The position numbers and the translations under genes are program-made. The notes under the pieces are model-generated. The model did not search any database and had not been told where the DNA came from. It worked only from the letters and a program-made list of their open reading frames with translations. From Panorpa germanica (Eukaryota > Arthropoda > Insecta > Mecoptera > Panorpidae): DNA of 64,000 nt. Numbering within the stretch: position 1 is the stretch's first letter; each line of letters opens with the position of its first letter. The stretch lies in contig OY783206.1 of the NCBI GenBank assembly GCA_963678705.1, positions 20,161,807-20,225,806 on the forward strand. The letters run 5' to 3'. Positions 19,501 to 43,232 of this stretch are shown here, in pieces.

Positions 19501-22500
19501 ATAATATTTAAATTCACCAATTAGTGTCTTATATTGCTGTTTTAATATAGGAAAACAAAACGCAAACGAACATCTAAAACCTCATTATTTAATGAAATTA
19601 TTTTTTTATAAATAGGTTATCTAATGCTTAAATTGCTTAAATGTTCCGATTAGCCATGTAATTTAAAGTTCGATTTAACACCGAATTAATTTTGATTTAC
19701 ACCACTAGTCCGAATCGACTGCTATCGAATCGCCTGCGTACTTCACCGACGTCTATAATTTCTATGTGAGAGGTAAAAAAATAATTCTACCATTATTACC
19801 GATATGAAAATAGATTTAAAAATCGAATGACGTAATAAATTGAAAAACGAATAAATTATTTTTAAGAAAAGAACAGTTTATCCGACAAAAGGATTCTGTG
19901 TTGTATTTACTAGAGAAACGAGTTCAGGATAAATGTAATTCAAGATTAATTAATGTTTTACCCTTTTAAGGGCCGAGCGTCCTACTCACGACGTCGCGGA
20001 CGTCTTGTTGTCGTTAAAGCACGCCGTCCTACGTCCCGACGGCAGCCCAGAAATGCAAGGCTGTTCCATGAGCCTGCCACAGCACTCCGGCCAAAATTCT
20101 CACGTGGTCTCACATTCTGGAGGACAATATATGGGCCCCCAGGCGTCCCTGTCGTACACAGTACATCCTCAGGTACAAAACAAATTAAGGGAGTTCACCA
20201 GCTGATAAAATTTGTTAATATAAGTGTCCTTAATTTAATTACAAAATTTCAAATGTTTTGACCAGCTGTGAAGCGAGATATTCATAATTAAGGAGGTACC
20301 GTCAATGCAAAAAGTTTATCTCTCGGTAATACGAAATGCAAAATACGAAGTACATGAGGGATGAGCAAATATTGGGGCTGTACTTTTAAAAATGAATTTT
20401 TCAACTCCCTATTAAACTGCTTTTTGCTTGTTGAAATGATTTTTTTGTACACATAATAGTTTAATAAATTAAAAATTACCTATAATTATTATCAAATTTA
20501 TATTAATTCAATTTAAATTCAAATTAAATATTTTGAAAAAGGAATAATAAATTTTGCAACGCTGCAAATTTACGTGTGTTGACGCATGCGTGATTTGGTT
20601 CTTTCACCAATAAATTGTTATATTTTATATAATATTTATCCCGATAATATATTCCGATTTTATATAATATTTTGAATTTCCCGCTCAAATTGGCATTGGC
20701 AACGTTGCCGGCTTATAACCCACACTTACTGTTTCTTAAAGGTTTTATTTAAATATTTTCGTATATAGGTATCCTTTTATTAATTTTCTTTTTGCAATAG
20801 TTACAGAAAAGATTATTTTATATACACCTAGTTTTTGAAAGCCGTGTCACCATTTTTTTATAGTTAAAAGTTATATTATGTGGTGGAATGGAGCTAAAAA
20901 TTATGATTGGTTGGATGATGGAAAATGACTATTTTTAATCATGTATAAAAAGAAAACTATGAACCGTAGGTCTCTAAAATTTTGATACAGCATGTATTTT
21001 AACTATTTGTATCGGCCCTCCAAATTTCACGACGTTTTCATCATTTACGTTTACGTCCTGTACCTCCTTAAAGTGCACATAGGAAAGTTTTGAATGTTTT
21101 GATCAGTTAGTAAAGGTGATATAAAGTTGATATTTCTTTAAAATAGCATACGCGTTATGTGAATAGCTTTATATTTACTTTTACAGTAAAATATTGGTGT
21201 TACTGTTTTAGATGTTGGTGTCACCAGCTTCCGGCGGGCCTAACAGTTACAGTTCTGGTTACTACGACCCCCAATGCGCCCCCTGCCAAGGACCCATGCC
21301 GCTGCAACATTGCACCACTGCTGTTTTTCCTAGTATGAGCGTTAACGTGAGCATGAACATGACGATGCATGGCTACCCGGATTCAAATGGACAATCGTGT
21401 TCTCAGGTAAGCCTAGGAGATGCCTGACTGTCTTCAGATAGACTTATACACTCGGATATGTTGGGTTCTTATAAACGCATCTCAAGTTTTTATTATTCGG
21501 TAGTAGTTGACTGTGAATTTAGTAAAGATGTCATTTGGTGACAAGAAGGCGTGTCGTGTAGCACACCGCAAGCGTATTTAGGTGAATTTTGCCCGGACGT
21601 ATACGCGCTACTACGCTTTACCTATCCGAACCTTGTAAATGTAATAAACCTCGCACTCTGCAAGCGGCAAAGCCGTCCGAATATGGGCGTTACGTAGCTC
21701 TCACACTACAGGCGTATATCAGTGAATTTTAACCAAACGAATACATGCTGGAACCAGGGTCGGATTTGGAGGTGTGGAGGCTCTGGAGTAACGATGGAGT
21801 GGAGGCCCCTAATTATTTTCCGAATAAAAGAAACCATTTTTTCCGTCAAGTTTTTTAAAAATTGATTGCTTTTATCTCTATATGGGGGACCCTCTCTTGT
21901 GGAGGCCCCGGGGCAGTAGCCCCGACTGCCGTTCCTCAAATCCCGGCCTGGCTTCAACACTATACCTATCCGAACCTTGTAAATACAATCAGCTGCTTCA
22001 GACTGGAAGGGAATGCAATAGTCTCTTTCATAACAGTAGGGTATCGATAAAAATTAAAGTAAAAGTTTGTTCTCATGATAAATTATGTTAGTACAAACCA
22101 ACTCCAATACACCCTACAGTACACAAGTTTGACTTGGCGTACTGTCGTATCGGTACGTGGTATGTATATATTGTGACACAACACATGCAAAGAACACAGG
22201 AGTCAGCTTGCTCTGAGCGTCCGAATACGCCGTCACTTAAATACGCTTGCTGTGTGCGACAGGTCTTAGAAACAAAGACTACAACAACTAGCATCTAAGA
22301 AGAGAGCGTTGCGATGACCTTGTGGGTAATCTTAAGAAAATTAATTCTTCTATTGTTGAAAAACGCGCTAAAGGTAAAATAAAATCTGTAATTTCACTGA
22401 TTTAATAATAACAATAAGTTTTACATTCAAAGAAAATATTATTATGTTATTTTTTTACATAGCGTAAATATACAAATTAGTTCTTTTATTTCTATATAAA

Positions 22501-42900: not shown

Positions 42901-43232
42901 TTACCTTTATAAATCCATCCTGGCTGCACGTCACAAACATTTTCCCATCTGCAGAAAAAGTATTGTATAAAAGTTACTGCACCCGCGGAAAATGATATTT
43001 GAATCTCTTGTACTTTTGCATCCAAGATTCTGCGCCTGGAATTGAAAGACTCGTTCCTAAAACATTCAACTTAAGGATATCTGCGGGTGTTTTCAAAGTG
43101 TAACCCTATATACACGTACCTGGAGCTAAGTCCTTATTTTCTGAAACTCCAAACTCTTCCCTAGAACGATTTCTCCACAAGGGTTCATGCTTACAGATTA
43201 GTTCCCATTCGTAACACGTGTGACTGGGTGCA
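42901..43232 (-). pseudogene. F-box/WD40 gene fragment, unit 2 copy with original flank
   Basis: Duplicate of 31332-31645. Here the - strand reading extends past the junction as HTCYEWELICKHEPLW, improving the match to an F-box end (C..W..I...E.LW) before running into the AT microsatellite. This is therefore probably the ancestral context. Confidence 0.4.

Follow-up and report, generated by a model that had tools for sequence, protein, structure and literature searches.

The question raised by this locus is whether two adjoining copies of one segment, which double part of a gene resembling glass, represent a very young tandem duplication or a segment that entered the assembly twice. Within the analysed window, a stretch of 64,000 nucleotides, comparison at an offset of 11,569 placed two direct copies, each 11,569 bp long and immediately adjacent, at positions 20077-31645 (unit 1) and 31646-43214 (unit 2), which meet at a novel junction (31645/31646) and contain no indel. 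The units differ at a single position, A at 27615 and C at 39184, located about 2.1 kb beyond the stop codon and outside homopolymers; all 39 homopolymers of at least six bases are identical between them. A BLAST comparison of the window with itself yielded 99.991% identity over 11,570 columns and no gap opening. The offset comparison and BLAST thus confirm the two side-by-side direct copies reported in an earlier note on this DNA, and its single base difference without indel was likewise found again, in keeping with the equal unit lengths. At the left edge identity ends immediately, all positions from 20068 to 20076 being mismatched at this offset, and at the right edge it ends after one common base (C at 31646 as at 43215). 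The window holds neither N nor lower-case letters, so there is no N between the copies. Among the 45 self-matches listed of 127 with at least 60 bp, the next most similar pair comprises 228 bp with 96.9% identity within 44991-45478, and the others are 66%-91% alike. Two adjacent copies in the same orientation are far beyond chance.

The gene concerned was modelled from the sequence alone and comprises eight coding exons on the + strand (16547-25500), joined by GT-AG introns and encoding 503 aa with one stop, which is terminal. Upstream of the duplicated segment lie coding exon 1 (16547-16776), whose first Met is provisional as the frame is open upstream, and exon 2 (17266-17400). Exon 3 (19971-20172) is cut between two codons by the left breakpoint at 20077. 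Unit 1 then contains exon 4 (21212-21406), exon 5 with finger 1 (22662-23068), exon 6 with fingers 2 and 3 (24965-25132), exon 7 with finger 4 and the first half of finger 5 (25237-25341) and exon 8 with the stop codon TGA (25431-25500). Five C2H2 fingers were located at the C-terminus, starting at residues 363, 391, 419, 447 and 475 of the model, and Pfam zf-C2H2 was matched by five stretches. The best 60 of 66 PDB matches at E 1e-20 were other C2H2 proteins, none of them named Glass, and a search of NCBIfam returned no informative match. The N-terminal exons of the model presumably resemble Glass as well. Glass is described as a cluster of five C2H2 zinc fingers, with the residues D, S, T and K of finger 4 and Q, G, N and R of finger 5 given as those determining DNA specificity (PMC6399963); all eight of these published residues were found in the model. 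Judged by its predicted protein, the gene shows those hallmarks of glass that were tested, namely the five fingers and the complete set of finger-4 and finger-5 specificity residues, which supports the name that the earlier note had given it.

The last intron (25342-25430; 36911-36999 in unit 2) divides finger 5, and a reading that retains it stops at once with TAA, which is automatic given a GTAA donor in that phase. Among the arthropods compared in PMC6655844, an intron in finger 5 is reported only for Diptera and Lepidoptera. Its occurrence here hints either at the order to which the insect belongs or at a known range of the intron that has to be extended.

The two units differ in what they hold of the gene. 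Together with the left flank, unit 1 completes the glass model; it has a stop codon of its own, soon followed by AATAAA/ATTAAA words at 25591 and 25599, and in this model the parent gene is left undisrupted. Unit 2 starts with the 96 bp at the 3' end of exon 3 (31646-31741), followed by complete copies of exon 4 (32781-32975), exon 5 with finger 1 (34231-34637), exon 6 with fingers 2 and 3 (36534-36701), exon 7 with finger 4 and half of finger 5 (36806-36910) and exon 8 with the stop codon (37000-37069, the end corresponding to 25500 plus the offset of 11,569), all on the + strand. It was therefore right to describe unit 2, as had been done before, as an open copy of exons 4 to 8 with all five fingers and no upstream exons, and the description is refined here by the remnant of exon 3. 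Missing are exons 1 and 2, 106 bp from the start of exon 3 and the 5' region of the gene, and unit 2 falls short of full-gene capacity, defined as all coding exons plus the 5' region. Directly in front of the truncated exon an in-frame TAA is found (31643-31645), and the sequence upstream of the unit belongs to the far 3' flank of unit 1. The first in-frame ATG occurs at 31700; from this Met a five-finger protein of 328 aa is predicted, which would lack residues 1-175 of the model.

The right breakpoint is situated about 6.1 kb beyond the stop codon of unit 2 and has one base (C) in common with the left one, for which the chance of at least one common base is 48%. No longer in-register homology was detected within 100 bp on either side, where the longest common word has 8 bp and is out of register, and with a microhomology threshold of 2 bp the one-base overlap is classed as blunt. 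For comparison, 35% of 644 sequenced breakpoints of Drosophila copy number variants are listed as blunt and 41% as simple with 2 bp or more of microhomology, the contribution of non-allelic homologous recombination (NAHR) being negligible (PMC4056370); this set serves here as a loose yardstick, because it consists mostly of small events and its pipeline dropped all seven putative tandem duplications. One common base in the absence of longer in-register homology counts for a duplication in one step. End joining or replication template switching could have connected exon 3 of glass with a point some 6.1 kb downstream of the stop codon in such a single event.

Both breakpoints are found at extremes of base composition. 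The 100 bp to the left of 20077 have a GC content of 60%, the 99.8th percentile of a window with 32% GC, and the 100 bp after the right breakpoint one of 19%. An (AT)14 tract (43233-43260), the window's only dinucleotide run of at least 10 units, starts 18 bp past the right breakpoint; a breakpoint as near to it is expected for about 0.2% of random breakpoint pairs, a figure computed after the fact. Stalled forks or breaks would fit such extremes, and contig ends would fit them equally well. In 3-mer complexity the three boundaries range from ordinary to high values (48th to 95th percentile). An insertion of the retrotransposon-like sequence to the right of 43232 might have left as its footprint a second, target-site copy of the 18 bp that separate the right breakpoint from (AT)14. 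This was rejected: no second copy with fewer than five mismatches was found, and matches with five mismatches occur at four places. The (AT)14 tract is closely followed by a degraded reverse-transcriptase-like stretch (43319-44155, - strand), of which 43925-44155 reached 19.7 of the 29.6 bits required for RVT_1 and thus stayed below the Pfam cut-off, while 43322-43579 and 43622-43921 gave no Pfam match. A fold-back element of about 365 bp (19358-19722), imperfectly self-complementary with its arms 76% alike, ends 355 bp to the left of the left breakpoint.

The earlier note had offered a very young structural variant or a duplication made by the assembly, and these are the two readings that are left, as two further ones turned out to be weak; the weights we give to the four are a matter of judgement and were not computed. 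In a window rich in interspersed repeats, NAHR might be expected, with unequal crossing over between repeats on either side of the unit. However, apart from the duplication itself, no repeat pair among the 45 listed of 127 self-matches connects the two breakpoints, and the 8-bp word common to the 100 bp around each of them is out of register, so that the search for homologous repeats at both breakpoints failed and this origin was rejected as highly improbable. A false duplication in which both alleles of one locus were assembled side by side would account for the one SNP, and such two-haplotype cases form the larger class of false duplications in five of the six assemblies tabulated in PMC9516828. 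With 11,569 bp compared, the probability of finding at most one difference is, however, 1.2e-4 at a diversity of 0.1% and 2e-9 at 0.2%, rising to 0.68 at 0.01%. Because only one difference exists, this reading needs a nearly homozygous sample with a diversity of about 1e-4, and we regard it as quite unlikely, albeit less so than crossing over between repeats.

A more serious competitor is the assumption that one 11.57-kb segment of a single haplotype was laid down twice, through unmerged contig ends or a wrong gap fill, and that the organism has one unit between the two flanks; we assign it a probability just short of even. It is supported by the near-complete identity of the copies, and polishing with shared short reads would presumably make false copies agree, which counts against a real duplication. 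So does the unit length: a single long read covers about as much, the average for HiFi reads being 10-25 kb (PMC7673114). The position of the breakpoints, one in a patch of 60% GC and the other 18 bp before (AT)14, points in the same direction, since such places are probably also where contigs or gap fills tend to end, with the reservation that the 0.2% was obtained post hoc. Artefacts of this kind are documented and exceeded the two-haplotype class in one of the six assemblies tabulated, with 27.2 versus 13.7 Mbp (PMC9516828). On the other side, according to the same source, a gap between copies on one scaffold is usual, although not invariable, for false duplications, and such a gap is absent here; a tandem arrangement free of gaps and of N between the units counts for a real duplication. 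The single difference is a substitution and not an indel, and with its position outside homopolymers and 39 unchanged homopolymers it resembles a real base difference more than a long-read error. Furthermore, given boundaries of ordinary to high complexity and the lack of a breakpoint-pairing repeat among the self-matches listed, there is no obvious repeat that could mislead an assembler. False duplications are characterized by half or low read depth, or by a read-depth gap at the junction (PMC9516828).

Taking these points together, we give a slight preference to a very young direct tandem duplication, the second copy of which is probably silent, over the same-haplotype artefact, and consider the chance that it is correct to be about even. 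Partial gene duplications in tandem are common in Drosophila yakuba, where 1,004 of 1,116 tandem duplications in the sample described had caught genes or gene fragments (PMC5460883), which likewise counts for a real event. From one difference in 11,569 bp a divergence of K = 8.6e-5 was obtained (Poisson 95% range 2.2e-6 to 4.8e-4). With the Drosophila mutation rate of 2.8e-9 per base per generation taken as valid for this insect, the duplication, if real, would be about 15,000 generations old (400 to 86,000); gene conversion or polishing would lower the apparent age.

Under the favoured reading of a young duplication, unit 1 would keep the 5' exons and thereby a complete glass, and unit 2 would be a 3' gene fragment. 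Because the 5' exons and the upstream region of glass are missing from unit 2, the 328-aa protein is expected not to be made, and the unit is most likely silent or rarely transcribed. Transcription from an internal start or by read-through could nevertheless make the five-finger protein possible. That the second copy is real and also expressed, giving rise to a Glass protein of about 328 aa that lacks its N-terminal part, keeps all five fingers and competes with the full-length protein on its targets, appears quite improbable to us. O'Neill and colleagues are said to have found in 1995 that Glass cut down to its DNA-binding domain acts in a dominant-negative manner. An expressed truncated Glass would represent a natural newborn antagonist of an eye-development regulator that arose from one tandem duplication. 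Two other products were considered as well. A fused ten-finger protein is out, as unit 1 has its own stop codon and the poly(A)-like words at 25591 and 25599, and the two finger sets do not form one frame. Splicing from exon 7 of unit 1 into unit 2 (exons 6-8) would be in phase but requires skipping of exon 8 and of the poly(A) region and is not favoured.

Further elements were observed elsewhere in the window. One exon (48255-48575, - strand) matches MAEA, an E3 ubiquitin transferase subunit, of PDB entry 8pjn with E 5.7e-21; neighbouring frames at 47347-48208 (-) resemble, as we assume, further MAEA exons, and the gene perhaps extends over 47347-48575 (-). An open frame of 487 aa at 460-1923 (-) contains DUF1759 (113.3 bits), which we take to be of the kind found in gag of Pao/BEL retrotransposons. 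Local tandem arrays at 10709-11060, 2227-2545 and 44991-45478 are built of 88-bp units, with two different consensus units, and of 260-bp units. An interspersed repeat family occurs in both orientations at 14071-14847, 21951-22560, 28189-28619, 11241-11624 and 61457-61742; its members are about 70-85% alike, and two of these five copies are located inside the duplicated unit.

Partial tandem duplication of genes is a known phenomenon, of which the present case, if real, is an ordinary example. For Daphnia one glass gene is stated (PMC2888819), and in the open-licence literature we found no published report of a tandem copy of glass in insect genomes. A real event would provide a clean and very recent partial duplication of a conserved eye transcription factor with an intact parent gene, and it could be used to ask whether regulator fragments consisting of the DNA-binding part only are tolerated. 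In the case of a false one, annotators could be led to list a second, non-existent glass gene.

Three known systems lend themselves to comparison. With the same-haplotype false duplications described in PMC9516828, the locus shares near-identical adjacent copies of one segment in which parts of a gene are doubled; it differs in that no N separates the copies, the comparison being based on sequence alone. The segregating partial-gene duplications of Drosophila treated in PMC4503668 and PMC5460883 are similar in being direct, arranged in tandem, recently derived and broken inside a gene, whereas the putative duplication considered here comes from one assembly only and consists of the 3' part of a gene without 5' exons. 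Compared with Glass, a transcription factor that acts in photoreceptor development, as characterized in PMC6399963 and PMC6655844, the present model differs in having eight coding exons and, in tandem, a 5'-truncated second copy. It agrees with Glass in the five clustered C-terminal fingers and in all eight specificity residues of fingers 4 and 5, and its last intron splits finger 5 in the same way as intron 4 of Drosophila glass.
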